From assembly GCF_963664965.1 (NCBI RefSeq), contig NZ_OY761823.1:2374001-2438000 (forward strand): a DNA stretch of 64,000 nucleotides. The letters run 5' to 3'. Of this stretch, positions 5,935 to 37,222 are shown in pieces. This stretch comes from an uncultured Pseudodesulfovibrio sp. GTDB lineage: Bacteria; Desulfobacterota; Desulfovibrionia; Desulfovibrionales; Desulfovibrionaceae. The first letter of the stretch is position 1, and each line of letters begins with the position of its first letter. The notes beneath the pieces were generated by a model that was not told the DNA's origin, searched no databases, and worked only from the letters and a program-made list of their open reading frames with translations. The translations under genes were made by a program, and so were the position numbers.

Positions 5935-6594
5935 GTGTCAGACAAAGATTTGCCCGCTGGAGCCATCCTTCAGCGCGATAAGAAAACATATGCCATTGTT
6001 CCGCGTACGCCCGTAGGTGTCGTGACACCGGACGTCCTTGAGGCCCTTGCCCGTGTCGGCCGCAAGTTCGAGATACCGATCATGAAGATAACTTCCGGCC
6101 AGCGTATCGCCTTGGTCGGATTGGAAAAAGAGCAGGTCGATCAGGTCTGGGAAGATCTCAAGATGGACATCGGTCCTGCTGTCGGTTTGTGTGTGCATTA
6201 TGTGCAGGCATGTCCCGGTACTGAAGTCTGCAAGTTCGGACTTCGGGACTCGCTTGGCCTTGGGCTGGAGCTTGAAAAGATGTTTGTCGGCAAGGAGCTG
6301 CCCGCCAAGATGAAGGTCGGCGTGTCAGGCTGCACCATGTGCTGTGCAGAGAGCTATGTGCGTGATGTCGGCCTTATCGGCAAGAAAAAAGGCTGGACCA
6401 TGGTCGTTGGAGGTAATGCCTCGGGCAGGCCTCGCATTGCCGATGTTCTGGCTGAGGATCTGACGCGAGGGGAGGCCATAGAGCTTGTCGGGCGTTTCAT
6501 GGATTATTACCGTGATAATTCCAATAAGCGCAGCCGTTCCTCCCTGTTTGTGAAGAAGGTCGGCATTGATGCCGTCAAGAAGGCTATTCTGTAA
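5935..6594 (+). CDS. Sulfite/nitrite reductase-like siroheme protein, copy 2
   Basis: 219 residues, paralogous over its whole length with the preceding gene (shared HYVQAC, VSGC-MCC-ESYVRDVGL, GGNA and YRDN blocks). The cluster ligands are CPGTEVC (CX5C) and GCTMCC (CX3C). Start is GTG at 5935, set by GGAGG at 5925-5929; the overlapping ATG two bases earlier is out of frame. It differs from copy 1 by a two-residue longer loop (KMDIGPAVGLC) and by V instead of C in the residues before the VSGC motif. The two may act as hetero-oligomer partners or on different substrates (sulfite versus nitrite). Last gene of the operon, followed by a terminator. Confidence 0.88.
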   Translation: MSDKDLPAGAILQRDKKTYAIVPRTPVGVVTPDVLEALARVGRKFEIPIMKITSGQRIALVGLEKEQVDQVWEDLKMDIGPAVGLCVHYVQACPGTEVCKFGLRDSLGLGLELEKMFVGKELPAKMKVGVSGCTMCCAESYVRDVGLIGKKKGWTMVVGGNASGRPRIADVLAEDLTRGEAIELVGRFMDYYRDNSNKRSRSSLFVKKVGIDAVKKAIL

Positions 6595-6623
6595 CTCCTT
6601 CCTGCTGTATTTCTGCTGTTATT

Positions 6624-6665
6624 GAGGGGCAGTCCTGTGAAAAGCAGGGCTGTCCTCACGTTTTT
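6624..6665 (+). terminator. Terminator of the siroheme operon
   Basis: Stem formed by GAGG-GCAG-CCTG and CAGG-CTG-CCTC (small mismatches) at 6624-6657, then a T5 run at 6661. Confidence 0.7.
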
Positions 6666-6775
6666 CAGCTTGTAGCAGGCAACTGATTGAATGGCCTTTC
6701 ATGTTGTTGCGTAGACTGGAAAACATGAGTACAAGGCAGGGGGTTGCGTATTCTCATTTTTATAGGAGAGACCTT

Positions 6776-8143: not shown

Positions 8144-9601
8144 ATGCGCTGGCAATACGTGCTGCACATCATAGGCGCTCTGGTTGCCTGTGTCGGTATG
8201 ACCATGGTCCTGCCGCTCGCGTGGGGTGCATATTATGGTGATGGAACGGCGGCTCCCATGGCCTTGTCCATGGCAATCACCATCCTGTCCGGCGCACTCA
8301 TGTTTTTCGTGTTTCGCGATCCTGTTGCGGCCAAGTCCGCAATGACGCACCGGGAGGGCATGGCCATTGTCGCGCTCGGGTGGTTTGCCGCCGGAGCCTT
8401 CGGCGGGCTGCCGTTTTATCTTGGCGGGACATTTGAAACCGTAGTGGACTGCGTGTTCGAATCCCTGTCCGGTTTTAGTACTACCGGCTCTTCCGTTTTG
8501 ACGAATATCGAGGCGGTTCCCCGCGGCATATTGTTCTGGCGCAGTCTGACACACTGGCTCGGCGGTATGGGAATTATCGTCCTGTCGCTCGCCATCCTGC
8601 CGTTTCTCGGCGTTGGTGGCATGCAGCTGTACAAAGCCGAGGTTCCCGGTCCTGTGCCGGATAAACTGAAGCCGCGCATCAAGGATACGGCCATGACTCT
8701 CTGGAAGGTCTACGTGCTTTTCAGTGTCATTGAGACCATCCTTTTGATGTTTGGCGGCATGGATTTCTTCGATGCGCTTTGCCACACCTTCGGAACTATG
8801 GCAACCGGCGGTTTTTCAACGAAAAATACGTCTGTCGCTGCGTTTGACAGTGCGTACATCGATTATGTCATCACCATCTTCATGCTCATTGCCGGTGTGA
8901 ATTTTTCCCTGCATTACCTGTTGTTGAAGTGGCGTCCGTCCGCCATGTTCAAGGACCCTGAATTTCGGGTCTTTGGCGTGATGACGGCCGTTTTCATCAT
9001 CATTATCACCATAGCAGTCTACGCTGGTGGCAATTATGATTCCGTGTCGGATTCCGTGCGGTATACGTCATTTCAGGTGGCAGCCATCCTGACAACCACT
9101 GGATTCGCTACGGCAGACTATGAGCTGTGGCCGGGAATAACGCAGGCGATACTGCTTTTCTGCATGTTTGTTGGCGGATGTGCCGGGTCTACCGGTGGCG
9201 GCATGAAAGTCATGCGTATCATGCTGTTGGTCAAACATTCCTACAAGGAACTGTTTCGTCTGATACATCCCCGTTCGGTCAATCGTGTGAAGATGGGCAA
9301 GACAGTGGTGCAGGACGATGTCATCAGCGGCGTCTGGGGCTTTTTCATTCTCTGGATCGGCCTGTTTGTTCTGGCAGCGTTTGTCGTCGCCGGAACCGGC
9401 GTGGATGTGGTTACATCCTTTGCCGCGTCCCTGGCCTGTATCGGCAACATTGGCCCTGGAATCGGCGGTGTCGGTCCGACGGATAATTTCGCATGGTTGC
9501 CTGACACTGCAAAGTGGGTCCTGACCTTTTGCATGGTCCTCGGACGACTGGAAATCTATACGGTCATCATTCTGTTTGTGCCAGAGTTCTGGCGCAAGTA
9601 A
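8144..9601 (+). CDS. trkH: Trk system potassium channel TrkH
   Basis: 485-residue inner-membrane K+ translocating subunit. Four pore-loop repeats are visible through their selectivity-filter segments: GFSTTGSSVL, TMATGGFSTKN, LTTTGFATADYE and CIGNIGPGIG, in a protein with about ten membrane helices. The LGGMGIIVLSLAILP segment is typical of TrkH/KtrB. Start ATG abuts the trkA stop. The gate is expected to respond to nucleotide bound by TrkA. A terminator follows at 9624. Confidence 0.96.
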   Translation: MRWQYVLHIIGALVACVGMTMVLPLAWGAYYGDGTAAPMALSMAITILSGALMFFVFRDPVAAKSAMTHREGMAIVALGWFAAGAFGGLPFYLGGTFETVVDCVFESLSGFSTTGSSVLTNIEAVPRGILFWRSLTHWLGGMGIIVLSLAILPFLGVGGMQLYKAEVPGPVPDKLKPRIKDTAMTLWKVYVLFSVIETILLMFGGMDFFDALCHTFGTMATGGFSTKNTSVAAFDSAYIDYVITIFMLIAGVNFSLHYLLLKWRPSAMFKDPEFRVFGVMTAVFIIIITIAVYAGGNYDSVSDSVRYTSFQVAAILTTTGFATADYELWPGITQAILLFCMFVGGCAGSTGGGMKVMRIMLLVKHSYKELFRLIHPRSVNRVKMGKTVVQDDVISGVWGFFILWIGLFVLAAFVVAGTGVDVVTSFAASLACIGNIGPGIGGVGPTDNFAWLPDTAKWVLTFCMVLGRLEIYTVIILFVPEFWRK

Positions 9602-9623
9602 ATTGCTCCATACATAAATACAG

Positions 9624-9655
9624 AAAAGGCCGCTCATTTGAGTGGCCTTTTTGTT
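9624..9655 (+). terminator. Terminator of trkAH
   Basis: AAAAGGCCGCTC/GAGTGGCCTTTT hairpin with a T5 tail. Confidence 0.85.
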
Positions 9656-9749
9656 GTTTATCGTATTGGATTTATCTGGAGAATGTCTAGAGAATATCCA
9701 GAGTTGTTGCCTCGCAACGGCTAATACAAAGACGTTGTAAATTCTGAGA

Positions 9750-11351
9750 TTAGTCGGCCCGGTAGTGGCAGCCTTTTGTTTCCTTGTTTCGCAGTGCCGC
9801 AAGGGTCACGATATAAGCGGCCTGAGAGCCGTGAAAAAGATCAATCAGCGGTTTGCTGATGGCTGTTTCGCGGTAGAAATCATGCAGGTCCTTGGTGAGT
9901 TTGCGGAGGTCGGAAAAAGCACGGCTCAGTCGGCTGTTGGTGCGGGATACACCGACGTAATTCCACATGGTGTTGCGGATGTTGGCCCAGTCCTGCGAGA
10001 TGAGTGCCGGGTCTTCATTCTGCATGTTGCCCTGACTGACCCAGTCGGGAATGGCTTCGTCCAGCTTGTGGCTGAGGGGCGAAGTATTGTTCATGCGGGA
10101 TGCCATGTCATTGCCGACGCTGTAGCCCCAGAGCATGCCTTCAAGCAGTGAGGTGCTGGCAAGGCGGTTGGCACCGTGCACGCCGGTGCAGCTGCATTCT
10201 CCTGCTGCATAGAGGTGCTCAAGTGTGGTGCGGCCATGATTGTCGACATGGATGCCACCGCAGAAATAGTGTGCGGCCGGAACCACGGGAACAGGATCGC
10301 AACTCATGTCCACGCCGATCGATTTACAACGGTCATAGATCGTGGGGAAACGTTTTTGGACATCGTGCTTAACCTTGGAAACATCCAGATAGACGCAGTC
10401 ATCACCGGAGTGGAGCATTTCGTCCATGATGGCCCGGGTCACGATGTCACGCGGGGCGAGATCGGCGCGGGGGTCGCGTTTTTTCATGAATGCTTCGCCC
10501 TTGCCGTTCACAAGGATCGCGCCTTCACCCCGTACAGCCTCCGAGACCAGAAAGCGCTTTTCGCCGCGTTTGGAGCCGCCGTACATCGCTGTTGGATGGA
10601 ACTGCACATATTCGCAGTTCATGAGACGGGCACCGGCACGGGAGGCCATGGCGAGCCCTGAACCGATCGAACCGGGGGTATTGGTCGTGTGCAGGTATAT
10701 CTGCCCGATGCCGCCGGTTGCGAGAAGGGTGAATCGCGAAAGAATGGTTTCGACTTTGCCAAGTTCTTCATTGAAGACGTAGGCACCGGTACAGTGGTTT
10801 GACAGGCTGTACTTGAAGTCGAGATGCTTGGCGTGGTGCTGTGTGGTCAGCAGGTCGATGGCAGTGCGCTTGGTAAGCACGCGAATGTTCTCATGCGCTT
10901 CCACTGCCGATCCGAGCACTTCCATGATGTTCCGACCGGTGTGGTCGTCGCAATAAAGGATACGGGCCAGAGAGTGTCCGCCTTCCTTGGTCAGGTACCA
11001 GTCACCGGGCTTTCGCTGATTGAATGGAATTTCGTATTTTTCAAGGAACAGTTTTTTCAGTACTTCAGGACCCTTGCGGCAAAGATAGCGAACGGCGCGG
11101 GTGGAGTTCTGTTCCCAGCCTGCCGTGAGGATGTCTCTTTCCAGAATTTTGGGATCGTCATCCTCGCTGCGGTAGACGATACCGCCTTGGGCGAGAGAGG
11201 TGTTGCCGGAAGCCAGTTTGTCGCCAGCGGTGATGAGAATGACGTCAACCCCCTGATCGGCAAGAGTAAGGGCTGCGACTGAACCGGCGATACCGGAGCC
11301 GATAATGAGAGCGTCACTGTGAAGTCGAAGGTCGTGCATGGATTCAGTCAT
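9750..11351 (-). CDS. nadB: L-aspartate oxidase
   Basis: 533-residue FAD enzyme oxidising L-aspartate to iminoaspartate, the first step of de novo NAD synthesis; in anaerobes fumarate is the likely electron acceptor. N-terminal Rossmann motif ALIIGSGIAGSVAAL, succinate dehydrogenase-type motifs SLAQGGI, HPTA, RGEGAILVNGKGE, and the catalytic loop ...LAPRDIVTRAI; FAD motif HYFCGGIHVDNHGRT and LYAAGECSCTGVHGANRLASTSLLEG. The ATG at 11351 is preferred; an alternative TTG at 11375 would overlap nadA by 13 bases. Last gene of nadC-nadA-nadB. Confidence 0.95.
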   Translation of the reverse strand: MTESMHDLRLHSDALIIGSGIAGSVAALTLADQGVDVILITAGDKLASGNTSLAQGGIVYRSEDDDPKILERDILTAGWEQNSTRAVRYLCRKGPEVLKKLFLEKYEIPFNQRKPGDWYLTKEGGHSLARILYCDDHTGRNIMEVLGSAVEAHENIRVLTKRTAIDLLTTQHHAKHLDFKYSLSNHCTGAYVFNEELGKVETILSRFTLLATGGIGQIYLHTTNTPGSIGSGLAMASRAGARLMNCEYVQFHPTAMYGGSKRGEKRFLVSEAVRGEGAILVNGKGEAFMKKRDPRADLAPRDIVTRAIMDEMLHSGDDCVYLDVSKVKHDVQKRFPTIYDRCKSIGVDMSCDPVPVVPAAHYFCGGIHVDNHGRTTLEHLYAAGECSCTGVHGANRLASTSLLEGMLWGYSVGNDMASRMNNTSPLSHKLDEAIPDWVSQGNMQNEDPALISQDWANIRNTMWNYVGVSRTNSRLSRAFSDLRKLTKDLHDFYRETAISKPLIDLFHGSQAAYIVTLAALRNKETKGCHYRAD

Positions 11352-11362
11352 ATCACTCTGGC

Positions 11363-12406
11363 CTATCTGGAGCAAACTTCAAGCATGCGTTCAAGTGATA
11401 ATCTGGCTGGAGCCTTGATATCGTCAGGAACGTCGATCGGCGTTGCCTTATCAATGTTTTCGAGCAGGGCGGCCAGATTTTCTTCCGTTGTCTTGCCCAT
11501 GTCTTCGCACAGGCTGACATTCAGCGGCCTGATCGTCTTTTCGCCAGCATATTGCGCTGCGAGTCGTTTTACCAGATTTTCTTCGGTGCCGATGTAGACA
11601 GTTGATCCGGCGGGCGCTTCCTTCGCGTATTTGATGAGGAAGGTGGTGGAGCCGTGGCCGTCCGAGGCGTCAACCACAGAGGAGTCGCATTCGGGATGAA
11701 CGACTATTTTTGCATCAGGCTCTTCAGCCCTGATTGTTTCCACGGTTTCCAGTTGGAATTCTTCATGGATCGGGCAGTATCCGGGCCAGATGATGAACTC
11801 TTTGTCTTTTACGTTGTCCGGATTGATGAAAAGTTTCGGGTCGCCGTCGATGACGCCTGCGGGAAGAATGATACGCTTGTCTTTCGGGATGTTCAGGGTG
11901 TTTGCGGTATTGGTGGCGAGGTGCTTGTCCGGGAGAAAAAGTACGGCGTCACCTTGTTTCATTGCCCATGAGAGCATGGTTTCCGCGTTGGCTGACGTGC
12001 AGACTGAGCCGTCGTATTCACCGACGACGCCTTTGACCGCCGCAGAAGAGTTTACATACGTGAGCGGAATGATCTTGCGCCCGTCGGCTTGAAGTATGTC
12101 AAGCGTCTGTCTCACGCGTCCCGCTTCGGCCATGTCGGCCATGGGGCAGGTGGCTGTGGGGTCGGGGATGTGGATTTTCTGGTCTTCGCGTCGAAGAATG
12201 GCTGCGGATTCCGCCATGAAATAGACACCGCAGAAAACGATGTGTTCGGCATCCAGACCGCTGATGTGGCGTGATAGTTCCAGTGAATCACCGCGAATGT
12301 CCGTATGCGCCATAACTGCATCCGCTTGGTAGTGATGGCCGAGAATGGCGAGGCGGCTCCCCATCTTTTTCCTGACGGTTTCGATGGTTTCTGCGAACTT
12401 TTCCAC
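11363..12406 (-). CDS. nadA: Quinolinate synthase
   Basis: 347-residue [4Fe-4S] enzyme condensing iminoaspartate with dihydroxyacetone phosphate to quinolinate. Family marks: LGHHYQADAVMAHTDIRGDSLELSR, the cluster cysteines around TATCPMADMA/CGVYF, CTSANAE and the later VHPECDSSV, plus FLPDKHLATNT. Start is GTG, preceded by AGGAGG. Placed between nadC (12 bases upstream) and nadB, so NadA receives the unstable iminoaspartate from its operon neighbour. Confidence 0.95.
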   Translation of the reverse strand: MEKFAETIETVRKKMGSRLAILGHHYQADAVMAHTDIRGDSLELSRHISGLDAEHIVFCGVYFMAESAAILRREDQKIHIPDPTATCPMADMAEAGRVRQTLDILQADGRKIIPLTYVNSSAAVKGVVGEYDGSVCTSANAETMLSWAMKQGDAVLFLPDKHLATNTANTLNIPKDKRIILPAGVIDGDPKLFINPDNVKDKEFIIWPGYCPIHEEFQLETVETIRAEEPDAKIVVHPECDSSVVDASDGHGSTTFLIKYAKEAPAGSTVYIGTEENLVKRLAAQYAGEKTIRPLNVSLCEDMGKTTEENLAALLENIDKATPIDVPDDIKAPARLSLERMLEVCSR

Positions 12407-12417
12407 AATGTTCCTCC

Positions 12418-13287
12418 TTACGCTAAGGGTATGAACTGCATACTGAAATCAGACACCGGAGCCGAGTGGGTGAGCTTGCCGACCGAGATGTAATTCGGTC
12501 CTAATTCGGCGACGGATCGGATATTTTCGAGAGATATGTTTCCGCTTATTTCGGTCTCAATGGTGTCGGGAATGATGCCGAGTGCTGTTTTGGTGGTTTC
12601 CGTATCCATGTTGTCTAACATGATGCGTTGGATTTCGCACTGACTGGCTTCTTCCACTTCTTCAAGAGTCCGACACTCGACCTCAATGGGCGGGCAGGGT
12701 GAATGGGCACGCAGCAGTGCGTCAACGGCCTGTGTGATGCCACCTGCGCGGTCGATGTGATTGTCCTTGAGCATGAGCATGTCGGACAGAGTCAGGCGGT
12801 GATTTTTGGCTCCACCGGCTAGAACGGCGTACTTTTCAGGGAAACGCAGACCGGGCAGGGTTTTTCTCGTGTCGAGCAGTTGTGTATTCGTGCCTTCAAG
12901 TTCTTTTACGTACCGGGCGGTCAGGTTGGCGACACCGGACAGATGGCAGAGAAAATTCATGATGACACGTTCAGCCTTGAGAAGCTGGAGGGCTGGACCT
13001 TGCAATGCGGCCACCATGGTGCCTTCGGAGACCTTGTCACCATCATCCACATTGAGATGCGTTTGGCATTCTGCGCCGCCGAATTCGAGAATCATGGGAA
13101 TGAGCGGAAGGCCGGCCACGACAGTGTCCTGTTTGGCGACAATCATGGCCTGAGCCATGTCGTTTTCCGTGAAAAGTCCCATGGACGTAAGGTCGGAGCC
13201 GTCTTCGGCGAGGGCTATGCGGATGGTCGCCAGCAGGAACATGCGGGCTTCGGCCTGAAAGAAATCTTCAAAAGTATTGGTAGGCAT
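12418..13287 (-). CDS. nadC: Nicotinate-nucleotide pyrophosphorylase (quinolinate phosphoribosyltransferase)
   Basis: 289 residues; converts quinolinate and PRPP to nicotinate mononucleotide. Motifs: IALAEDGSDLTSMGL near the N-terminus, LLDTRKTLPGLRFPEKYAV with the PRPP/quinolinate-binding arginine and lysine, GGAKNHRLTLSDMLMLKDNH and EVECRTLEEVEEA. Start 13287 was chosen over a 15-codon extension because GGGAG lies just upstream. First gene of the minus-strand NAD operon; promoter presumably in 13288-13445, which it shares with divergent mgtE. Confidence 0.95.
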   Translation of the reverse strand: MPTNTFEDFFQAEARMFLLATIRIALAEDGSDLTSMGLFTENDMAQAMIVAKQDTVVAGLPLIPMILEFGGAECQTHLNVDDGDKVSEGTMVAALQGPALQLLKAERVIMNFLCHLSGVANLTARYVKELEGTNTQLLDTRKTLPGLRFPEKYAVLAGGAKNHRLTLSDMLMLKDNHIDRAGGITQAVDALLRAHSPCPPIEVECRTLEEVEEASQCEIQRIMLDNMDTETTKTALGIIPDTIETEISGNISLENIRSVAELGPNYISVGKLTHSAPVSDFSMQFIPLA

Positions 13288-13445
13288 GGTTTCTCCCATT
13301 TTCCTAGAGTGGTTGAAGGGCAAGTAAAGCACGTATGTTCTTTCGTCAAGGGTTAGGGGAGATGATGAAATTTTTCACAATAAATTGAGAGCCTGCGGTG
13401 TGTAATTCTTTGACCTGACCTTTGAATTGGGCTAGGTATTCGCCC

Positions 13446-14777
13446 ATGAGTTCAAAAGAGGAAATTCGTCCTGAAGATGTCGAAATCGACGGCCTGACTG
13501 CCGCCGAACTTGAAGCGCAGCATCCTGCCGATGCCGCTGAAGCCATCGAGGGACTCGACCTTACGGATCAGATAAAATTCATTAAACAGCTTCCGGTCAA
13601 GGATGCTGCGCTTTCCCTTGCGGAAATGGAAACCCATGACCAGAAAGAGATCATTCAGAATCTCAATAGAGGGCTTGCCGGACGTATCGTTGCCCATATG
13701 TCGCCTGATGATGCGACTGACCTTCTTGATGAGCTAGACTACGAATTGCAGCAAGCGCTGCTCAGGCGCGTCCCGGCAGAGGAACGTGCCGAACTCAAGA
13801 CTCTGCTGACCTTTGATCCGGATACCGCCGGTGGTGTCATGAACACCGAGGTGGTCATTCTGGATCAGGATCTCAATGTCGATCTGGCAATTACAAAGAT
13901 TCGGGAAGAGGTCGAAGACAAGGAAATTCCTTATTATGCGTACCTGACAGATGAGAAGGATCGTCTGGTCGGCGTTGTTTCACTGAGGGATATTCTCCTG
14001 GCCAGACGCGGGGCGATGCTCAAGGATCTTGTCAAGACGCAGAGTCTCGTCACGGTCGGGTATAATATCGACAAGGAAGAAGTCGCGCATCTCATCGCGC
14101 ACTATAACCTGCTCGCGCTTCCTGTTGTCGATTTCGGCAACCGCCTGCTCGGGGTTGTCACTGTTGATGATGTCATTGACATTATTCACGAAGAAGCCAG
14201 TGAAGATATGCAGGCAATGGTTGGTGCCGGTGCCGATGAAACCACGGACTCCCCGTGGCTGTATTCGGTCCGCATGCGTTTGCCGTGGCTGATAATAAAC
14301 GTACTTTTTTCGGCTATTTCCGCGTGGGTGGTTCATCTTTTCGAAGGAAATATCGCGGAGATGGCGGTGCTTGCCGTGCTTATGCCCATTGTGGCGAACC
14401 AAGCGGGCAATACAGGACAGCAGGCATTGGCGGTCATGATCCGCCAACTCGCAATGGAGCGTTTCGACCGCAAGCGAGCATGGCTGGCTGTGGTCAGGGA
14501 ACTCAGGATCGGACTGCTCAACGGTGCGATTATTTCTTCCCTTGTGTTCGGTGTGGCGTTTGGGCTTACGGGGAAATTGTCTTTATCCCTTGTCATGGGG
14601 TTGGCCCTTGGCGTGGATATGGTCCTTGGAGCTGTCGCTGGAGCATCAATACCGCTTTTGCTCAAGGAAGTCGGGCGTGACCCGGCACAGGCCTCGAGTA
14701 TTTTCCTGACAACCATTACCGATTCCATGGGATTCTTTTTCCTGCTTGGTCTGGCCGGTCTGGTTTTATTGACTTGA
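13446..14777 (+). CDS. mgtE: Magnesium transporter MgtE
   Basis: 443-residue Mg2+ channel. N-terminal MgtE_N domain (AAELEAQHPADAAEAIEGL...), paired CBS domains (about residues 130-260: VVSLRDILLA, VVTVDDVIDIIHEEASEDMQ) and a five-helix membrane domain with MRLPWLIIN, PIVANQAGNTGQQALAVMIRQLA and the C-terminal pore helix TDSMGFFFLLGLAGL. ATG 13446 is favoured over a TTG at 13422, although the ribosome site is weak for both. I saw no M-box riboswitch in the short upstream gap. Ends at a bidirectional terminator. Confidence 0.94.
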   Translation: MSSKEEIRPEDVEIDGLTAAELEAQHPADAAEAIEGLDLTDQIKFIKQLPVKDAALSLAEMETHDQKEIIQNLNRGLAGRIVAHMSPDDATDLLDELDYELQQALLRRVPAEERAELKTLLTFDPDTAGGVMNTEVVILDQDLNVDLAITKIREEVEDKEIPYYAYLTDEKDRLVGVVSLRDILLARRGAMLKDLVKTQSLVTVGYNIDKEEVAHLIAHYNLLALPVVDFGNRLLGVVTVDDVIDIIHEEASEDMQAMVGAGADETTDSPWLYSVRMRLPWLIINVLFSAISAWVVHLFEGNIAEMAVLAVLMPIVANQAGNTGQQALAVMIRQLAMERFDRKRAWLAVVRELRIGLLNGAIISSLVFGVAFGLTGKLSLSLVMGLALGVDMVLGAVAGASIPLLLKEVGRDPAQASSIFLTTITDSMGFFFLLGLAGLVLLT

Positions 14778-14799
14778 TTGTCGAGTTTTATTCGAAAAC

Positions 14800-14837
14800 A
14801 AAAAACCGTCCCGGAAGCTCCGGGACGGTTTTTTTTA
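14800..14837. terminator. Bidirectional terminator between mgtE and cheZ
   Basis: AAAAAACCGTCCCGGA/TCCGGGACGGTTTTTT stem with A-tract on one side and T-tract on the other, ending convergent transcripts. Confidence 0.9.
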
Positions 14838-14857
14838 TTGTCAGCCTAATGAACGGA

Positions 14858-15595
14858 TTAATCGAGGCCGAGTGAAGCGAGCAGGTCGTCCACATCTCCT
14901 TGATTGGTGCCCTCTGACGGGCCTTGCAGCTTTGATGAGGCTTCTTCCTTGGCATCCACGGAAAGGCTGTCGATGTCTTTTTCGGGCTCTTCTTCGCGTT
15001 GACGAATCATCAGTCCGGTGGAGAGCATGACTTCGCGAACGATTTTTTCCACTTCGCGGATGGAATTGATGATGATTTTGATTCTTTGGCCGGTCAGGTC
15101 CTGAAAGCTGAGCGTAACCATGATGGTGGAAAGGTCGGTGCCCAGCGTGTTGTTGATCGCTTTCAACTGTTCACGATCTTGTTTGGTGACACCGCCGGAC
15201 TCGAAGCCTTTGACGATCTTTGCGACACTGCCTTGGAGGTCTTGCAGTTTTTCAACGATTTCAATGATGTCTACAGCGGCTTTTTCCGTTGTTTGAAGGA
15301 CTGCGTCAAGCTGGTCCGATGTCTCGCTGAAGAGTTCTTCAGGGTCGATGTTGGCTTCGATGCTTTTGATTTCGTTTCCGCCACGGGCTGCCTTGACTTC
15401 GTGGTAGATTTTTTTCAGGCCGGTTTGCAAGTCGTCATTGACACGACGGTAAAACTCTCCTTCAAGCAGAGATTTTGAAAGATTGGCGGCGATTTCCTTT
15501 TCGACCGCAGAAGTGATGGAATCTTTCAGGCTTTCGACAAGTTCCACGGAAACCTGATCCATCATTTCCTTGAGTATCTCTTCATTGCTCGTCAT
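14858..15595 (-). CDS. cheZ: CheZ-type CheY-P phosphatase
   Basis: 245 residues. A long helical hairpin carries the catalytic segment LSFQDLTGQRIKIIINSIREVE, in which Asp and Gln match the D-x3-Q pair that attacks the CheY aspartyl phosphate. The extreme C-terminus DVDDLLASLGLD matches the CheZ tail helix that docks on CheY-P. It is longer than the E. coli protein (214) because of a longer acidic linker. Last gene of the ileS-to-cheZ run, directly after a PilZ protein, suggesting that motility output and c-di-GMP sensing are produced together. Confidence 0.88.
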   Translation of the reverse strand: MTSNEEILKEMMDQVSVELVESLKDSITSAVEKEIAANLSKSLLEGEFYRRVNDDLQTGLKKIYHEVKAARGGNEIKSIEANIDPEELFSETSDQLDAVLQTTEKAAVDIIEIVEKLQDLQGSVAKIVKGFESGGVTKQDREQLKAINNTLGTDLSTIMVTLSFQDLTGQRIKIIINSIREVEKIVREVMLSTGLMIRQREEEPEKDIDSLSVDAKEEASSKLQGPSEGTNQGDVDDLLASLGLD

Positions 15596-15615
15596 GCGTT
15601 GCTCCTGGAGAGTGG

Positions 15616-16134
15616 CTACATTTTTGCGTTTCTGATCTGTTCTCGTTGTTGTTGGAAAACAAATTGGACAATGGCCTCCATGTCCGATCCGCGTGTGTCG
15701 ACAAATTCGAATCGGTACAGTCCAGTGTCGTCATCAATACCAAGAATACGTCCCTTGCTGCTTGCCATTCTTACCGGGACATGGCTGAGCAAAAGCACCA
15801 GTTCCAAGCTGTCGTCGGGGTGAAATGGTTGCGTAGAACGTATTTTGACGCCAGCGGCTGACAGTTCGAGAATTTCAACATCAAGAGGGAATTCGGTACG
15901 GAGATGTTCCTGACTCATCAGGCTCAGTACCCGATCAAGCTTACGGTCCATTTCTGCAAGGAAATTCGTTAAATCTTCCGGGAGTTTGCTGTTTCGAAAC
16001 AGCTCGTCCCTGCATGAAGTCTCGCTGATGACGTCTCCGCTGAAAATCTGTGAAGAGTCGATGGACTGCATGGTCCTGGCATAGCCTTTCAGTCTGACAG
16101 GTATGCGGGAGAAGGTTCGTTTTTCCTCGCTCAT
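15616..16134 (-). CDS. PilZ-domain protein
   Basis: 172 residues. RTFSRIPVRL (RxxxR) near the N-terminus and LELSAAGVKI (D/NxSxxG-like) near residue 100 are c-di-GMP contacts of PilZ domains. Between them lies a helical insertion of about 70 residues (LPEDLTNFLAEMDRKLDRVLSLM), so the arginine motif is separated from the barrel, unlike the compact PilZ of YcgR. In the same operon as cheZ (20 bases apart) and likely a c-di-GMP effector affecting motility. No catalytic domain. Confidence 0.8.
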   Translation of the reverse strand: MSEEKRTFSRIPVRLKGYARTMQSIDSSQIFSGDVISETSCRDELFRNSKLPEDLTNFLAEMDRKLDRVLSLMSQEHLRTEFPLDVEILELSAAGVKIRSTQPFHPDDSLELVLLLSHVPVRMASSKGRILGIDDDTGLYRFEFVDTRGSDMEAIVQFVFQQQREQIRNAKM

Positions 16135-16147
16135 GAAATACCTCTGC

Positions 16148-16588
16148 TTACTGTCGGTCGTCCTCGAGATCCAATGTCATTGCCTTGACCGGGCAAACGC
16201 GTGTGCACATGCCGCAGGCGGAACATTTATCAACATCAAAGATCACGGTCCGGTTGCTGGGTTCCAGCGTGAGGGCGTCTGTGGGGCACATGGCGGTACA
16301 CAGCCCGCAATGTATGCAGGATTCCTCGTTGCGGAAAATCTTGTGTGCAACCGGTGTAATCCGTACACCGTTTTCCTTGAGATAGCCGATACCTTTGTGG
16401 AAATCCTCTTCCAGACCGGTCATTTCAAGAGTCAGCGAGCCTTCGTGACGAGGGCTGATGTCTGCCTTGAGAATATTGAAGCTCAGGTCGAAAAGCCGTG
16501 TCAGATTGCATACCACGGGGCGGCCTGAACTTTCCGGGGGGAAGGACAGATAAACGATTTTTCTAAAGCCTTTGACTACTTCTTTCAT
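16148..16588 (-). CDS. NIL-domain 4Fe-4S ferredoxin
   Basis: 146 residues. N-terminal NIL domain (ligand-binding fold also found on MetN transporters: KIVYLSFPPES...LTRLFDLSFNILKADI, GSLTLEMTG) followed by two [4Fe-4S] motifs, CIHCGLCTAMCPTDA and CSACGMCTRVCPVKA. NIL-ferredoxins of anaerobes have been linked to homocysteine/sulfur transfer steps in methionine synthesis; no such partner gene is adjacent here, so the role stays open. 13 bases upstream of the PilZ gene. Confidence 0.87.
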   Translation of the reverse strand: MKEVVKGFRKIVYLSFPPESSGRPVVCNLTRLFDLSFNILKADISPRHEGSLTLEMTGLEEDFHKGIGYLKENGVRITPVAHKIFRNEESCIHCGLCTAMCPTDALTLEPSNRTVIFDVDKCSACGMCTRVCPVKAMTLDLEDDRQ

Positions 16589-16644
16589 AGAGACATCCTG
16601 CTCACGAGTATGGCACAGCGGACGGAATTACCGCAAGTACCAGA

Positions 16645-17574
16645 TTATTTCATTTTTTTGAGAAAGCGTTTGGCTTGCGTGGCCTCAACGGACTTGGGAA
16701 ACTTCTTGATGACCTCGTCCATACGCATCTTGGCAAGTTCCGGTTTGCCAAGATAATTCCACGAGTATCCAGCCTTGAGAAGGGCTGATTTGTATTTTGA
16801 ACTTTTCTTGTATTTTTCAATAACATCCTCAAAAAGGATGGCGGCCCGTGCGTAGTCTTTCAGTTTGTAATAGCACTGCCCCTGCCAGAAAACGGCGCTG
16901 GCCGAGAAGGGGTGCCCTTTGAACGTATCGGTGAATTCGGCCCAGTAGGAGCGGGCATTTTCAAACTTGCCGTCCTTGTAAAGGGCGTACGCCTTGTCGT
17001 AGAGGGCTTTTGCCGGGTCGGTATCAGCGGGTTTGGCCTGTGGTTTCGGTTGTTCCAGCGGTGCAGCGGTTGCTGCGATGGTTGCGTTTGCATCTCCGGA
17101 AGGCGTTGCCGCAACTGCGGCGGCAGCGGACGCTGCAAGAGCTGCTGCCCGTTCTTCCCGCACTTTTGGCAGGTCGACTTGCAGCTGGTTTTCGAGAACG
17201 AATTCGATTTCGTCGAGCTGGTCTCCCAGAGAAGACATGGTCATGGTCGAGTTGGTGGCTCCAACCTGACGGTCCATGCGGATTTCCATGGTTTCAAGTT
17301 CGCCGCGAAGTTTGGCGAAATCCGCCCTGAGGGACTGTATTTCAGCCCACATGTCTGCTGTTCGCTGACGGACAGGAGACTGGGATTTTTCAATTTCTTC
17401 CTTGAGAAGCTGTTTGGATTCCTCCAATTCAGCTTCAAGCTGCTTGATTCTTCCGCGATCCTGCTGCCGTTCGATTTGCAACGTATCCATATCGGTCTGA
17501 GTAACACAGCCGAAGGTCAGGAGAAGGGCGAAAGTAGCTACAACAAGTCGAATTAAATGAGACTTTTTTTTCAT
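16645..17574 (-). CDS. YbgF/CpoB-like coiled-coil TPR lipoprotein
   Basis: 309 residues. Signal peptide with lipobox LLTFGC (Cys about residue 22), then a coiled coil (about 30-130), an alanine-rich linker (AALAASAAAAVAATPSGDAN) and C-terminal tetratricopeptide repeats from about residue 190 (AKALYDKAYALYKDGKFENARSYW..., SASAVFWQGQCYYKLKDYARAAILF...). The layout equals the Tol-Pal partner YbgF/CpoB, which couples outer-membrane constriction to peptidoglycan synthesis. Family members are usually not lipidated, so the lipobox is somewhat unusual. tol-pal genes are not in the window. Overlaps the upstream gene by 4 bases. Confidence 0.8.
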   Translation of the reverse strand: MKKKSHLIRLVVATFALLLTFGCVTQTDMDTLQIERQQDRGRIKQLEAELEESKQLLKEEIEKSQSPVRQRTADMWAEIQSLRADFAKLRGELETMEIRMDRQVGATNSTMTMSSLGDQLDEIEFVLENQLQVDLPKVREERAAALAASAAAAVAATPSGDANATIAATAAPLEQPKPQAKPADTDPAKALYDKAYALYKDGKFENARSYWAEFTDTFKGHPFSASAVFWQGQCYYKLKDYARAAILFEDVIEKYKKSSKYKSALLKAGYSWNYLGKPELAKMRMDEVIKKFPKSVEATQAKRFLKKMK

Positions 17575-32934: not shown

Positions 32935-32940
32935 TTGACG
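32935..32940 (+). promoter_or_regulatory. Candidate -35 element of the ilv operon
   Basis: TTGACG about 60 bases ahead of the leader peptide start. A matching -10 is not clear (TATTGA at the 17-base distance is weak). Confidence 0.3.
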
Positions 32941-32997
32941 GAAGGTGCTGACCTGATTATTGAATTCCTTAAGAATACTCAAAGGAAAATTTCGTTT

Positions 32998-33105
32998 ATG
33001 CGTAACTTCGACACCACATCTTCTCTTTACAGCGTTTACCTAACGGTAAGCGTATCTGTAGTAGTGGATGTAGTAGTAGGTGATGTCGATAGGGACGCAC
33101 CATAG
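32998..33105 (+). CDS. ilvL: ilv operon leader peptide (valine-rich attenuator peptide)
   Basis: A 35-codon open frame in the ilvB 5' region with AAGGA 8-12 bases before its ATG. It encodes ten valines and two leucines: SVYLTVSVSVVVDVVVGDVD. Seven of the ten valine codons are GTA. An 8-pair hairpin (33033-33040 with 33045-33052) lies inside it, and an intrinsic terminator follows 28 bases after its stop. This is the layout of branched-chain amino acid attenuators: charged tRNA-Val lets the ribosome finish and termination occurs; stalling at the valine runs would disrupt it. Confidence 0.85.
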   Translation: MRNFDTTSSLYSVYLTVSVSVVVDVVVGDVDRDAP

Positions 33106-33170
33106 CGGGATTTCGAGTAACTTCAGACTTTTAAACCCCCGTCGGTGCAACCGACGGGGGTTTTTCTTTT
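33105..33170 (+). promoter_or_regulatory. ilv attenuator: antiterminator strand and terminator
   Basis: Terminator stem AAACCCCCGTCGG/CCGACGGGGGTTT at 33133-33162 with a T5 tail to 33165. GCGGGATTT at 33105-33113 can pair with AAACCCCCG of the terminator's left arm and may be the antiterminator strand. No gene lies between this terminator and ilvB, so it can only regulate read-through. Confidence 0.8.
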
Positions 33171-33202: not shown

Positions 33203-34879
33203 ATGGAACTCAGTGGCGCGGAAATTATTATCAAATTACTCGAAAGGCAGGGGATTGAGACTATTGCCGGTATACCCGGTGGTGCGAATTTGCCTCTTTA
33301 TGACGCATTGTCTCAGAGTGAACAGATTCGACATGTCTTGACCAGACATGAGCAGGGGGCTGGATTCATAGCTCAGGGGATGGCACGGGTTACTGGGGAA
33401 CCTGCTGTTTTCTTTGCAACTTCAGGTCCGGGAGCAACCAACACGCTGACTGCCATTGCTGACGCGAAGCTCGATTCCATCCCTGTCATCTGCATCACCG
33501 GGCAGGTCCCTTTGAGCATGATCGGGACTGATGCCTTTCAGGAAGTCGATACCTACGGATTAAGTGTTCCTATTACCAAGCATAATTATCTTGTGCGCTC
33601 TGTCGAGGAACTGCTGCGTGTCATTCCCGAGGCGTTCAGCGTTGCGGCTTCCGGCCGTCCCGGACCTGTCGTGATTGACGTTCCCAAAGACGTGCAGTGT
33701 GCGATGATGGAAATTGATTCCTGGCCCGAACCGGGGATGCGTGAAGAAGGCCCTGAGTTGATTGACGCTGAGGTGCGTCGGGCCGCAACCATGATAAACC
33801 GGGCAAAGAAGCCCATTTTGTACCTTGGTGGCGGTGTGATTCAGTCCGGTTCAGCCAATGAGGCTCTTTCGCTTGCCGAGAAAGGTTCCATCCCTTCCGC
33901 ATTGACGCTCATGGGGCTGGGGGTTGTCCCTCACGATCATCCGTTGAATCTCGGGATGCTTGGCATGCACGCAGCGAGATATACCAATATGGCTCTTGAG
34001 AAATGTGATTTGCTGGTTGCGGTCGGCGTTCGTTTCGATGACCGGGCAACGGGTAAAGTCGCGGAATTTTGTCCTGACGCAAAAATCATTCATGTCGATA
34101 TTGATCCGAGCGAGTTGGACAAGATCAAGACGAGCCACGCTTCCATTACTGGTGATGTTGCTGATTCCCTCAAGGCTCTGCTGCCTCAGATCGAGAAGGC
34201 TGAACGCACTGAATGGTTGCATGAAATCAGTCAATTGAAGAAATCCAATCCTATGGTTGTCGAAGGAGCCGAGGACCCGGTTTCGCCATATGGTGTTGTT
34301 TTGAAAACGGCTGAGTTGGCCGAGGACGACGCCATCGTGTGTACTGACGTCGGGCAGCACCAGATGCGTACGGCGCAGGTATATCCTTTTGAGCATCCGC
34401 GTCAGTGGCTGACGTCTGGCGGTCTCGGAACCATGGGATTCGGCATGCCTGCCGCGATCGGGGCCGCGCTTGCCGCACCGGACAGACAGGTGATCTGTTT
34501 CAGTGGAGACGGTTCCATCATGATGAATATTCAGGATCTTGCAACCGCTATGGAAAACAATGTCAACGTCAAGATTGTCCTGACGAACAACAACGCGCTG
34601 GGATTGGTGCGGCAGCAGCAGGATTTGTTCTATGGCAAGCGGTATTTTGCTTCCAATTATGAATATGCTGTTGATTTCGTGAAGATTGCCGATGGGTTCG
34701 GAATGCGTACCTATGATTTGGGTCTGAGTGAAAATCCGGCTGAAACCCTTGCCGAGGCCCTTGCTTTTGATGGGCCGGCATTCATTCATGTGCCTTTGAG
34801 TCCTGATGAGCCTGTGTATCCGATGGTTCCTCCCGGAGCTGCGAATTCCGAAATGATCGGAGGGAAAGCCGATGTGTAA
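33203..34879 (+). CDS. ilvB: Acetolactate synthase large subunit
   Basis: 558-residue ThDP enzyme condensing pyruvate to acetolactate (valine/leucine) or with 2-ketobutyrate (isoleucine). N-terminal ThDP glutamate region VLTRHEQGAGFIAQG, FATSGPGATN, FAD-binding middle domain (GVRFDDRATGK), C-terminal GDGSIMMNIQDLATAMENNVNVKIVLTNNN for Mg-ThDP. The true start is 33203 with AAGGAG upstream; a frame extending to 33080 would translate the attenuator and is rejected. Overlaps ilvN by 8 bases. Confidence 0.96.
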   Translation: MELSGAEIIIKLLERQGIETIAGIPGGANLPLYDALSQSEQIRHVLTRHEQGAGFIAQGMARVTGEPAVFFATSGPGATNTLTAIADAKLDSIPVICITGQVPLSMIGTDAFQEVDTYGLSVPITKHNYLVRSVEELLRVIPEAFSVAASGRPGPVVIDVPKDVQCAMMEIDSWPEPGMREEGPELIDAEVRRAATMINRAKKPILYLGGGVIQSGSANEALSLAEKGSIPSALTLMGLGVVPHDHPLNLGMLGMHAARYTNMALEKCDLLVAVGVRFDDRATGKVAEFCPDAKIIHVDIDPSELDKIKTSHASITGDVADSLKALLPQIEKAERTEWLHEISQLKKSNPMVVEGAEDPVSPYGVVLKTAELAEDDAIVCTDVGQHQMRTAQVYPFEHPRQWLTSGGLGTMGFGMPAAIGAALAAPDRQVICFSGDGSIMMNIQDLATAMENNVNVKIVLTNNNALGLVRQQQDLFYGKRYFASNYEYAVDFVKIADGFGMRTYDLGLSENPAETLAEALAFDGPAFIHVPLSPDEPVYPMVPPGAANSEMIGGKADV

Positions 34880-35150
34880 GCATACTGTTCTTGAATTGTC
34901 CGTGAACAACCATCCCGGCGTGATGTCGCATATTTGCGGCCTGTTTGCGCGTAGGGCGTACAATGTTGAAGGCATTGCCTGTATGCCGATCAATGGTGGC
35001 GGGAAAAGCCGTATATGGCTTCTGGTGAATGCTGATGAAAGGCTGGATCAAATGATCAAGCAGGTGGACAAGCTGCATGATGTCCTTGGGGTGGACAGGC
35101 ATGACGGTGGACACGAAGTGTTTGAAAAAATGACAGAATTTGTCAGTTGA
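34872..35150 (+). CDS. ilvN: Acetolactate synthase small (regulatory) subunit, short form
   Basis: 92 residues containing one ACT domain (TVLELSVNNHPGVMSHICGLFARRAYNVEGIACMP), which binds valine for feedback inhibition of IlvB. Short like E. coli IlvN (96) rather than the 160-residue IlvH type. GGAGG lies upstream within ilvB and the start overlaps the ilvB stop by 8 bases. Last gene before a terminator, so the operon is ilvL-ilvB-ilvN. Confidence 0.93.
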   Translation: MCKHTVLELSVNNHPGVMSHICGLFARRAYNVEGIACMPINGGGKSRIWLLVNADERLDQMIKQVDKLHDVLGVDRHDGGHEVFEKMTEFVS

Positions 35151-35289: not shown

Positions 35290-35316
35290 TAAAGAAATCT
35301 TTTGTTGTGCCGATAA
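35290..35316 (+). promoter_or_regulatory. Sigma-28 (FliA) promoter of the flagellin-like gene
   Basis: TAAAGAAA (35290-35297), exactly 11 bases, then GCCGATAA (35309-35316). The -10 is a perfect match and the -35 core TAAAG agrees with the flagellar sigma-28 consensus TAAAGTTT-N11-GCCGATAA. 38 bases before the gene start. Confidence 0.85.
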
Positions 35317-35354
35317 AAATAACGGGTAGTTGTAACCGTTGTTCGGGAGACAGG

Positions 35355-36188
35355 ATGGCACTTTCAGAAAGCCAGAAAACTTTTATACTGGATTATTCCA
35401 CACGCCTGCTGCAACAGGATATTCTGACGAACTCTCTTTTTGGAAGTTCCAGCGTTGGCAGGGATTTGCGTAGCCTTGTGCTTGGGGATGCCCGTACTGC
35501 CACCACTTTTACGAATCCTTTTGAGCAGGCCATCAGCGGGACGTTGCGGGCTGATGCCGGTGCTACGCGTCAGGCGAGTCGTAATGTGGGCGAGGCTGCG
35601 TCCATGATGGGCGTTGCGCGAACCGATATGGCGACCATCGTTGATGCACTCAATGACATGGAAGATATTATCGATAAAATCGATACGGGTGAGTTGGATG
35701 GTTCCAGCGCTGTTGTTCAGGCGGACTATGACGCCTTGAAGGAAAAGATTACCGGGACGATTTCCAATTCCGATTTTAACGGGATCGCTCTTTTGGACGG
35801 CACAAAGTGGGGGACGAGCCAGATTGACGCCAATGGAAATGTCTTTATCCAGTCAAGCAAGGAAGGCGGTTTCAATATCACATTTCACAATGTCGAAGCG
35901 GAGAACTGGGCCGGACTGGATAAAACCAAGCTCGAACTTCCGGCAGACAGGGCCGATCAGTTGGCGCTTGTCCAGAGCCTCCAATCGGACATGAATGCGA
36001 TTCTGGATGTCTATGAAGGCAAGGAGGACAGTCTCAAATCTCAGGAATTGCACCTGCAAAGCCAGTCGCAGATACTCGACAAGGCCGCGCAGTTACGCAT
36101 GCCTGAATCAGGAACAGCGGATTTAGAAAAGCTGATTGCCGATCTCGTCGCCAAGAACCTTGGAGATATTATCAATACGGTCGGATGA
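35355..36188 (+). CDS. Flagellin-like protein
   Basis: 277 residues. The N-terminal half resembles the flagellin D0/D1 helices: ATRQASRNVGEAASMMGVARTDMATIVDALNDME (compare the flagellin ...ARNINDGISMVQTAEGAL pattern) and ISNSDFNGIALLDG (compare FNGxxLLDG). The C-terminal helix (LHLQSQSQILDKAAQLR) is less typical and the final flagellin signature is missing. Start at 35355 is set by GGGAG. The sigma-28 promoter supports a late-flagellar product. It could be a minor filament, cap or hook-associated protein or a decayed flagellin paralogue. No chaperone or other flagellar gene is adjacent. Confidence 0.75.
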   Translation: MALSESQKTFILDYSTRLLQQDILTNSLFGSSSVGRDLRSLVLGDARTATTFTNPFEQAISGTLRADAGATRQASRNVGEAASMMGVARTDMATIVDALNDMEDIIDKIDTGELDGSSAVVQADYDALKEKITGTISNSDFNGIALLDGTKWGTSQIDANGNVFIQSSKEGGFNITFHNVEAENWAGLDKTKLELPADRADQLALVQSLQSDMNAILDVYEGKEDSLKSQELHLQSQSQILDKAAQLRMPESGTADLEKLIADLVAKNLGDIINTVG

Positions 36189-36267: not shown

Positions 36268-36303
36268 AAGAAAATCGCCTTTCGTTAGAAAGGCGATTTT
36301 CTT
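36268..36303 (-). terminator. Terminator of tRNA cassette 1
   Basis: AAAGAAAATCGCCTTT pairs with AAAGGCGATTTTCTTT; on the minus strand a T-tract follows. Lies directly after tRNA-Thr. Confidence 0.85.
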
Positions 36304-36310
36304 TGATATA

Positions 36311-36386
36311 TGGAGCTGACGAGCAGGATTGAACTGCCTACCTCATCCTTACCAAGGATGCGCTCTACCGATTGAGCTACGTCAGC
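36311..36386 (-). tRNA. tRNA-Thr(GGT), copy 1
   Basis: 76 bases with encoded CCA. Acceptor GCTGACG/CGTCAGC, anticodon stem CATCC/GGATG around loop TTGGTAA (anticodon GGT), T arm GCAGG-TTCAATC-CCTGC type. Minus strand, second tRNA in the Pro-Thr cassette. Confidence 0.95.
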
Positions 36387-36397
36387 ATTTTTGATTT

Positions 36398-36480
36398 GGT
36401 TGCCGCATCTGCGTCGTTCCGGGACACTTGGAGTATTCAGGCTACACCTTCGTGTCCCGCGCCTAGCATCTACGGCAACC
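36398..36480 (-). ncRNA. Structured spacer hairpin, copy 1
   Basis: Between the two tRNAs of cassette 1. Outer stem GGTTGCCG/CGGCAACC (extended by A/T-rich pairs from 36387 to about 36491), inner perfect stem CGGGACAC/GTGTCCCG, apical loop with GTAGCCTGA. Copy 2 at 36898 keeps the pairing with different bases. Probably a processed spacer element or a small RNA; function unknown. Confidence 0.5.
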
Positions 36481-36537
36481 AAATTAAAAATGCTGTGCAT
36501 TTCGTGGTAACCGTATGCGGTCAAATCTAAAGAACTT

Positions 36538-36588
36538 CGATGAAATGGTGGACCGAATGTTTCGTCGGCCCACCGGGGTGTTTCATCG
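36538..36588 (-). repeat. Second spacer hairpin near tRNA-Pro, copy 1
   Basis: CGATGAAA/TTTCATCG outer arms and GGTGGGCCGA/TCGGTCCACC inner arms immediately 3' of tRNA-Pro in the transcript. Conserved in cassette 2 (37051-37101). Confidence 0.55.
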
Positions 36589-36590
36589 TC

Positions 36591-36667
36591 TGGTCGGGAT
36601 GAAAGGATTTGAACCTTCGACCCCTTGAACCCCATTCAAGTGCGCTCCCAAGCTGCGCTACATCCCG
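36591..36667 (-). tRNA. tRNA-Pro(GGG), copy 1
   Basis: 77 bases with CCA. Acceptor CGGGATG/CATCCCG, anticodon loop ATGGGGT (anticodon GGG), T loop TTCAAAT. First tRNA of cassette 1. Confidence 0.95.
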
Positions 36668-36679
36668 ACGCGAGAAGAG

Positions 36680-36708
36680 TGTCTATCTTCGGGGCGGAGA
36701 GAAGTCAA
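36680..36708 (-). promoter_or_regulatory. Promoter of tRNA cassette 1
   Basis: Minus-strand TTGACT (36703-36708), 17-base spacer, TAGACA (36680-36685), 13 bases before tRNA-Pro. Confidence 0.65.
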
Positions 36709-36774
36709 TCATTTTTTAACTATTTGATGTTTAAGATTTTTGTAGGGGGGCGAGGAGGGCAGAAGAAAAAAGAC

Positions 36775-36802
36775 AAGGCCATCTGATTTCTCAGATGGCC
36801 TT
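36775..36802 (-). terminator. Terminator of tRNA cassette 2
   Basis: AAGGCCATCTGA/TCAGATGGCCTT perfect stem; a T-rich run follows on the minus strand. Confidence 0.85.
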
Positions 36803-36809
36803 TGATATA

Positions 36810-36885
36810 TGGAGCTGACGAGCAGGATTGAACTGCCTACCTCGTCCTTACCAAGGACGCGCTCTACCGATTGAGCTACGTCAGC
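36810..36885 (-). tRNA. tRNA-Thr(GGT), copy 2
   Basis: 76 bases with CCA, same as copy 1 except one pair of the anticodon stem (GTCC/GGAC-type instead of ATCC/GGAT), a compensated change. Anticodon GGT. Confidence 0.95.
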
Positions 36886-36897
36886 TTTTTTGTCGAT

Positions 36898-36979
36898 GGT
36901 GCCGCATCTGACTGCGTTACGGATCACTTGAAGTAGTCAGGCTACATCTGCGTGTTCCGTGCCTTGCAGCTACGGCACC
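36898..36979 (-). ncRNA. Structured spacer hairpin, copy 2
   Basis: Outer stem GGTGCCG/CGGCACC, extended by TTTTTTGTCGA/TCGACAAAAAA (36886-36991), inner stem ACGGAACAC/GTGATCCGT with one mismatch, loop again containing GTAGCCTGA. Base changes relative to copy 1 are paired on both arms. Confidence 0.5.
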
Positions 36980-37050
36980 CTCGACAAAAAAGCTTTATCT
37001 CAGGGCCGCGTTGCGGTTTTTCGACAATGGTATCGATTTGAAAGAACTTT

Positions 37051-37101
37051 CGATGAAATGGCGGGCCGAGTGTTTCGTCGGCCCACCGGGGTACTTCATC
37101 G
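37051..37101 (-). repeat. Second spacer hairpin near tRNA-Pro, copy 2
   Basis: Arms CGATGAA/TTCATCG and GGTGGGCCGA/TCGGCCCGCC. Differs from copy 1 at paired positions while keeping the stem. Confidence 0.55.
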
Positions 37102-37103
37102 TC

Positions 37104-37180
37104 TGGTCGGGATGAAAGGATTTGAACCTTCGACCCCTTGAACCCCATTCAAGTGCGCTCCCAAGCTGCGCTACATCCCG
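37104..37180 (-). tRNA. tRNA-Pro(GGG), copy 2
   Basis: 77 bases, identical to copy 1 as far as read; anticodon GGG, CCA encoded. Confidence 0.95.
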
Positions 37181-37192
37181 ACGCGAGGTGTG

Positions 37193-37222
37193 TTACTATC
37201 TGCGTGAGGGGGCAGTTGTCAA
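37193..37222 (-). promoter_or_regulatory. Promoter of tRNA cassette 2
   Basis: Minus-strand TTGACA (37217-37222) and TAGTAA/ATAGTA at 37193-37199 with a 17-18 base spacer. Stronger than the cassette 1 promoter. Confidence 0.7.

Follow-up and report, generated by a model that had tools for sequence, protein, structure and literature searches.

The window (the whole stretch of DNA that was analysed, 64,000 nucleotides from an uncultured Pseudodesulfovibrio sp.) carries ilvB and ilvN, which were identified as the genes for the large and small subunits of AHAS I by using NCBIfam equivalog cut-offs. The closest named IlvB proteins were from Pseudodesulfovibrio, with an identity of 80% or less. The features at the locus are as follows.

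32935..32963, + strand: promoter-like TTGACG-N17-TATTGA, read from the sequence
32982..32986, + strand: AAGGA, RBS-like, 11 nt before the leader ATG
32998..33105, + strand: leader ORF of 35 codons, ATG at 32998 and stop TAG at 33103-33105
33058..33078, + strand: VVVDVVV run (codon positions), putative stall region
33097..33109, + strand: antiterminator 5' strand (predicted), GCACC-AUA-GCGGG, holding the leader stop 33103-33105
33138..33148, + strand: antiterminator 3' strand (predicted), CCCGU-C-GGUGC, common to the terminator 5' arm
33133..33163, + strand: intrinsic terminator hairpin, followed by a T-rich run
33203..34879, + strand: ilvB, AHAS I large subunit (NF006016/PRK08155, 958.5 bits; cut-off 870)
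34872..35150, + strand: ilvN, AHAS I small subunit (NF006036/PRK08178, 151.1 bits; cut-off 128)

The leader peptide is MRNFDTTSSLYSVYLTVSVSVVVDVVVGDVDRDAP*, and its codons include ten for Val, seven of which are GTA, and two for Leu. The terminator stem has 14 pairs (nine G-C), and no further gene was seen between the leader and the ilvB start at 33203. An RBS-preceded leader of this length and valine content, and a strong terminator with no other gene between it and ilvB, had been described in a sequence-only reading of this DNA, and both were confirmed at the coordinates listed. A scan with consensus promoters matched no promoter-like site at 32935..32963. Upstream of the leader, a small ORF ends at 32904.

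The same genome carries a second ilvB elsewhere, which is 52% identical; a comparable leader was not seen by eye in the 500 nt upstream of it. A flagellin-like ORF (35307-36188; identity by eye) lies 3' of ilvN on the same strand. It is followed at 36301-37204 by a direct duplication of about 500 bp, in which tRNA-Thr(GGU) and tRNA-Pro(GGG) occur twice, alternating, on the minus strand; the tRNA-bearing parts are 92-93% alike and the intervening stretch 78%.

Conservation of the leader and terminator in Desulfovibrionales

When both strands and all frames of the window were searched, the leader was the sole stop-bounded frame with at least 8 Val in 14 codons. We then compared 121 Desulfovibrionales loci of this ilvB type (39 and 82 from two sets, with at least 16 further listed rows left out). 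The rule for choosing the leader always returned the best Val frame, so that its output alone is no proof, and the starts are uncertain in some loci. A density of at least 7 Val in 14 codons was reached in 93 of the 121 real upstream regions versus 1 of 2420 dinucleotide-shuffled ones. Among the remaining 28 loci, the density was 5-6 of 14 in 12 and 3-4 in 16. In these 16, which were mostly short leaders of genus g15 (10 loci; the rest were from g19, g31, g38 and g42), it was not beyond that of the shuffled sequences, which often reach 3-4. Val density therefore lends no support to the 16 lowest loci, and the case for them stands on the shared core.

A hairpin scan placed a terminator hairpin after the leader frame in 120 of the 121 loci, and that of the last locus, L194, was found through model R1 (43.7 bits). 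The automatic frame was wrong in L194; the leader determined by hand is MNSLRLSLILTNPALAAISGVLVSVRLMEACAP*, which has a GTG start and contains more Leu than Val. With R1 at E <= 0.001, all 80 of the loci to which it was applied (L152-L231, of the 121) gave a match in the direction of the gene, the match being limited to the terminator part or little more in seven of them. Many orthologous leaders were preceded by RBS-like sites similar to that in the window, and in 105 of the 121 loci a TTGAC box lay 25-95 nt before the start chosen for the leader, compared with 8 of 121 after shuffling. The leader frame is thus conserved in relatives; its absence there had been named in the sequence-only reading as grounds for rejecting attenuation.

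These data bear on a simpler explanation, namely that the terminator serves to end a transcription unit lying upstream and that the leader ORF is there by chance. A small ORF does end shortly upstream, and an intergenic terminator is an ordinary feature. However, the Val-rich frame and the terminator are conserved together before this ilvB type across the order and in other phyla, the TTGAC box lies upstream of the leader in most loci, and the antiterminator pairs covary, as described below. We consider an incidental leader very improbable.

The leaders of genus g25 (for example, L199, L202 and L219-L221) end in ...PEGRL*. In L199 and L219-L221, a possible antiterminator strand, AAGCCGG or GAGCCGG, is located about 12 nt before the stop, in a different register. 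In g25 rows such as G131, G127 and G175, the ilvB match contains one in-frame stop (TAA, TAG or TGA, depending on the genome), probably because the alignment overruns the true stop.

Antiterminator pairing and the proposed switch

Folding predicted nine pairs and one G-U between 33097-33109 and 33138-33148, in which GCACC pairs with GGUGC and GCGGG with CCCGU, and the loop AUA lies opposite C. The leader stop codon is embedded in this strand, with the first two bases of UAG looped and the G in the G-U pair. The strand had earlier been placed at 33105-33113 and described as pairing only partly. The 3' part of that placement holds; the full strand starts 8 nt further upstream and spans the stop, and the description of the pairing as partial is not borne out.

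The antiterminator strands were aligned in a fixed register set by the stop codon (6 nt, stop codon and 4 nt), and the terminators were aligned separately. The 163 loci used (120 of the 121 and 43 named loci) gave 121 distinct rows. At least nine of the ten pairs were formed in 101 loci and at least seven in 122. Over the distinct rows, 927 of 1200 cells were paired (77%), compared with fractions of 0.35-0.51 when the register was slid by 1-3. Cells with changes on both sides numbered 42; the 500 whole-arm permutations, which ignore relatedness, averaged 18.9 and never exceeded 32, and slides of this unselected set gave 9-35, the slide of +3 (35) being near the observed value. The paired fraction itself (0.772) exceeded the permutation mean of 0.764 by a narrow margin (maximum, 0.777), because the arms are strongly conserved.

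We also analysed 33 diverse sequences that were preselected for at least eight pairs. In this subset, both-side changes were found in 13 antiterminator cells (slides, 0-6) and 24 terminator cells (slides, 1-4), and neither number was reached in any of 500 shuffles; two weaker measures of antiterminator covariation were reached by 33 and 25 of the 500 shuffles. A natural compensatory example is L195, with GGGAAUGCCG opposite CGGCAUUCCC. The fixed register failed, with fewer than seven pairs, in 41 of the 163 loci, in L179 through a wrongly picked hairpin. Shifted registers were considered as further support and rejected: a free-register scan gives 8 of 10 pairs by chance, so that such registers are weak and were not counted.

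The fold was then predicted for different states of the leader, with assumed ribosome positions and an assumed reach of 14-16 nt. With only the 5' arm of the terminator transcribed, stalls at Val 4, 6, 7 and 9 gave antiterminator probabilities of 0.71, 0.95, 0.95 and 0.95, respectively; the value was 0.44 at Val 10, and 0.02 for the transcript from position 32968 without a ribosome. A ribosome at the stop codon gave 0.00, because its assumed footprint then covers the strand. Folding in the leader states had been suggested as a check, and the antiterminator is indeed favoured with a ribosome assumed to be stalled on the Val run. Once the full terminator had been transcribed, it was preferred on energy in all states (probability, 0.96-0.97), and the switch must therefore be kinetic.

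A protecting 1:2 pairing in the absence of a ribosome is a feature of the trp type and is not required of all attenuators. The window's own fold contains one (single-sequence, z -5.35). A comparison across 87 loci did not show such a protector to be conserved in the no-ribosome state, the values being 0.66 for real and 0.64 for shuffled sequences, with 8 of the 87 loci above 90% of their shuffles, and we do not claim it. As in the four-segment attenuators of the E. coli trp type (described in PMC1183508), alternative 2:3 and 3:4 structures are predicted to form according to ribosome position; unlike in that type, no conserved 1:2 segment was found here, and segment 2 holds the leader stop codon.

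Prediction and covariation together indicate that the antiterminator excludes the terminator and that a stalled ribosome would leave the antiterminator strand accessible. For the events in the cell, from the stall itself to termination or readthrough and their dependence on valine, we infer the following. When charged tRNA-Val is ample, the ribosome would reach the stop codon at 33103-33105 and cover 33097-33109, the terminator at 33133-33163 would fold, and transcription would end short of ilvB. Under valine shortage, the ribosome would stall on the Val codons (mostly GUA) at 33058-33078 and leave 33097-33109 free; this strand would pair with 33138-33148 as the latter emerges, the terminator would come too late, and ilvBN would be transcribed. 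The bacterium would thus most likely turn the operon on only at valine shortage. In E. coli, deletion of RF3 is reported to raise attenuation, an effect ascribed to greater occupancy of leader stop codons by ribosomes, the ivbL UAG among them (PMC5373646); an antiterminator strand with an embedded stop codon agrees with this.

The operon type (AHAS I), the Val-rich leader and the terminator are those of E. coli ivbL-ilvBN. The antiterminator core is also shared with E. coli ivbL (L279), in which GCGCCG-UAG lies opposite CGGCGC. Model R1, which was built without E. coli or Enterobacter rows and with one Dickeya row, matched L279 at 47.7 bits and L103 at 47.9 bits, indicating that the RNA core is homologous to that of E. 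coli. At the peptide level, the IvbL profiles PF08049 and NF007579 gave no hits for the window leader; the Enterobacter IvbL passes PF08049 (60.6 bits) and falls just below the cut-off of NF007579 (58.2 against 60). With an AHAS I operon and a core homologous to that of E. coli, the element belongs with the ivbL-ilvBN kind of attenuator, and this system is a better comparison than ilvGMEDA, which had been chosen earlier. Conservation, compensatory antiterminator changes and the operon's identity all support the proposal of amino acid attenuation before ilvBN. On the anatomy, conservation, compensatory changes and predicted structures, we regard ribosome-mediated attenuation of transcription, of the ivbL-ilvBN kind, as the highly probable function of the element. 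Its mechanism would be an ordinary one, and at the level of sequence it is well supported.

Control of ilvB by a metabolite- or tRNA-binding RNA (a riboswitch or T-box), with the peptide secondary, was also considered. Some bacterial ilvB genes are under ppGpp riboswitches (PMC10272879). However, neither in the window nor in 17 related loci did the element attain the gathering score of any Rfam 15 family, and the best match below threshold was itself an attenuator, His_leader (29.7 bits against a gathering score of 49); the related loci gave just two Rfam hits, both to istR and both away from the element, in the E. coli and Enterobacter loci. A binding RNA in place of the ribosome-mediated attenuator is highly unlikely. 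The attenuator resembles the ilvB-II and ilvB-OMG motifs, in which, according to PMC10272879, a uORF rich in branched-chain amino acids precedes ilvB and attenuation is proposed; ilvB-II is a Corynebacterium motif, and ilvB-OMG, which comes from "various bacterial phyla" with 41 representatives, was compared by description alone. No report of this attenuator in Desulfovibrio was among the matches listed in the literature searched, from which subscription papers were missing; two comparative attenuator studies, of 2004 and 2010, may include some of these leaders.

Valine codon choice in the leaders

GTA accounted for 128 of 1288 Val codons (9.9%) in 49 ORFs of the window and for seven of ten in the leader (binomial p = 8.7e-6), in accord with the selective use of GTA noted earlier. 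In 29 Pseudodesulfovibrio-type leaders, 158 of 286 Val codons were GTA, compared with 48 of 1080 in their ilvB genes. The tRNA-Val genes of the genome have the anticodons UAC (two genes), GAC (one) and CAC (one), a count that leaves out 11 of 61 tRNA hits, all longer than 80 nt and too long for Val. GUA is expected to be decoded solely by tRNA-Val(UAC). The codon choice of the leader may tell of control by a single tRNA-Val isoacceptor. The idea that GTA was chosen to keep the antiterminator free finds no support, since 138 of 200 random synonymous recodings gave a probability at least as high.

A survey of 42 genomes in 23 groups (21 genera, with the window's genus split in three; 1100-17000 background codons each) showed enrichment of GTA in the leaders of 20 groups and of GTG in one. 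No correlation was observed between the GTA share of leaders and that of genes (42 genomes, rho -0.23, p = 0.15; 23 groups, rho -0.03, p = 0.89). The commonest Val codon of the leaders was the rarest in neighbouring genes in 16 of 23 groups (p = 0.007) and 14 of 21 genera (p = 0.009); this comparison is post hoc and rests on 4-13 Val codons per leader, and is thus a lead. The GTA bias is not universal, as other lineages take GTC or GTG. A mostly Rhodocyclales set, Hydrogenedentota and one Acidobacteriota leader favoured GTA, which makes up 1-2% of Val codons in their ilvB genes, and GTA was not favoured in Enterobacterales, Verrucomicrobiota and a Desulfocapsaceae set, where it makes up 10-17%. 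Enterobacteria depart from the rarest-codon pattern: GTA is the rarest in ilvB (15 of 102), and the leaders use GTC and GTG. The window leader, with mostly GTA, differs in this respect from the E. coli-type ivbL of three enterobacterial loci.

Leucine codons raise the alternative of a mixed branched-chain sensor, in which Leu (CTA) contributes as much as Val. CTA made up 32 of 81 Leu codons in the 29 Pseudodesulfovibrio-type leaders compared with 32 of 1793 in the window ORFs, the L194 leader is richer in Leu than in Val, and the second units of the tandem loci described below mix Val, Leu and Ile. However, Val dominates the leader of the window (ten codons to two), and it is the Val runs that sit just upstream of the antiterminator strand. 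An equal contribution of Leu is unlikely.

Related elements in other phyla and tandem units

Outside the order, 51 of 80 named loci were viewed, and 43 were analysed after eight were dropped as duplicates or too short. According to the locus labels, the core was also present before ilvB in Verrucomicrobiota, Hydrogenedentota, Acidobacteriota, Elusimicrobiota, Rhodocyclales, Enterobacterales and Desulfocapsaceae; the phyla other than that of the window number five, and the cases include E. coli ivbL. Mis-binning is possible, because Acidobacteriota and Elusimicrobiota are represented by one metagenome bin each and Hydrogenedentota entirely by bins. All seven IlvB proteins tested from these outside groups passed NF006016. 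Deep branches of the IlvB tree were weak, and transfer and old inheritance were not separable in it. In some loci the triplet in the antiterminator loop is a sense codon (UUU in L212, UUG in L028 and L060, UCG in L069 and L094, and AUG in L299) and the stop lies downstream; the embedded stop codon is therefore usual and not universal.

In a search of the phylum with R1, 67 of 395 genomes gave a match at E <= 0.01. Outside the family, seven hits scored above 43 bits, six of which were before ilvB with a Val-containing leader and one (G374) before ilvD. Two hits scored 40-43 bits: that in G611 was before ilvB, and at the locus in G384 neither ilvB nor a leader was found. No ilvB was seen at the thirteen viewed hits below 40 bits.

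Four congeners of the window's genome (G023, G020, G013 and G016; L235-L238) have two leader-terminator units before ilvB. R1 matched both units in all four loci (23.4-54.5 bits), and the second leaders mix Val, Leu and Ile. A doubled arrangement of leader ORF and attenuator is also reported for Salmonella mgtCBR (PMC3641672); there, the units sense ATP and proline, whereas both units of L235-L238 hold runs of Val codons.

A broader reading may be considered, which we rate a little short of an even chance: that homologous copies of a single attenuator RNA, in which the antiterminator strand generally includes the leader stop, have accompanied the AHAS I ilvB in six or more phyla; that the leaders repeatedly switch to the rarest Val codon of the host, codon choice tracking isoacceptor demand; that the stop moved downstream in some lineages while the pairing was kept; and that the switch was duplicated in a branch of the window's genus. 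The breadth of the shared core, the embedded stop, the tandem units and the codon switching may be unexpected to specialists. A switch known from E. coli textbooks would thereby be placed in the sulfate reducers, which are only distantly related to E. coli, and in several further phyla, in the form of a single RNA element that can be recognised by its core. The differing leader codons, shifted stops and doubled units form a natural comparative series for testing synonymous codon use in attenuators, a subject treated in theory for E. coli (PMC1183508).

Within the window's genome, R1 had a single strong site, the window element (66.6 bits), the next hit scoring 33.7 bits. Of ten lower hits, six were viewed (33.7 to 19.4 bits), and none had a Val-rich leader or ilvB; one lower hit is the same terminator on the opposite strand, and three score under 18 bits. 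The hit in G374 (L296, from 1501) consists of an attenuator core with a short V/L leader before ilvD, not ilvB. In the window's genome, a weak hit of 19.4 bits (L287; G000:C1:1745960-1746043, minus strand) lies 3' of a frame ending in ...HEHHHHSTRILFQLLLWILVYPRLRFGRVCAVASR* and 5' of another ORF, and this frame could be another leader.
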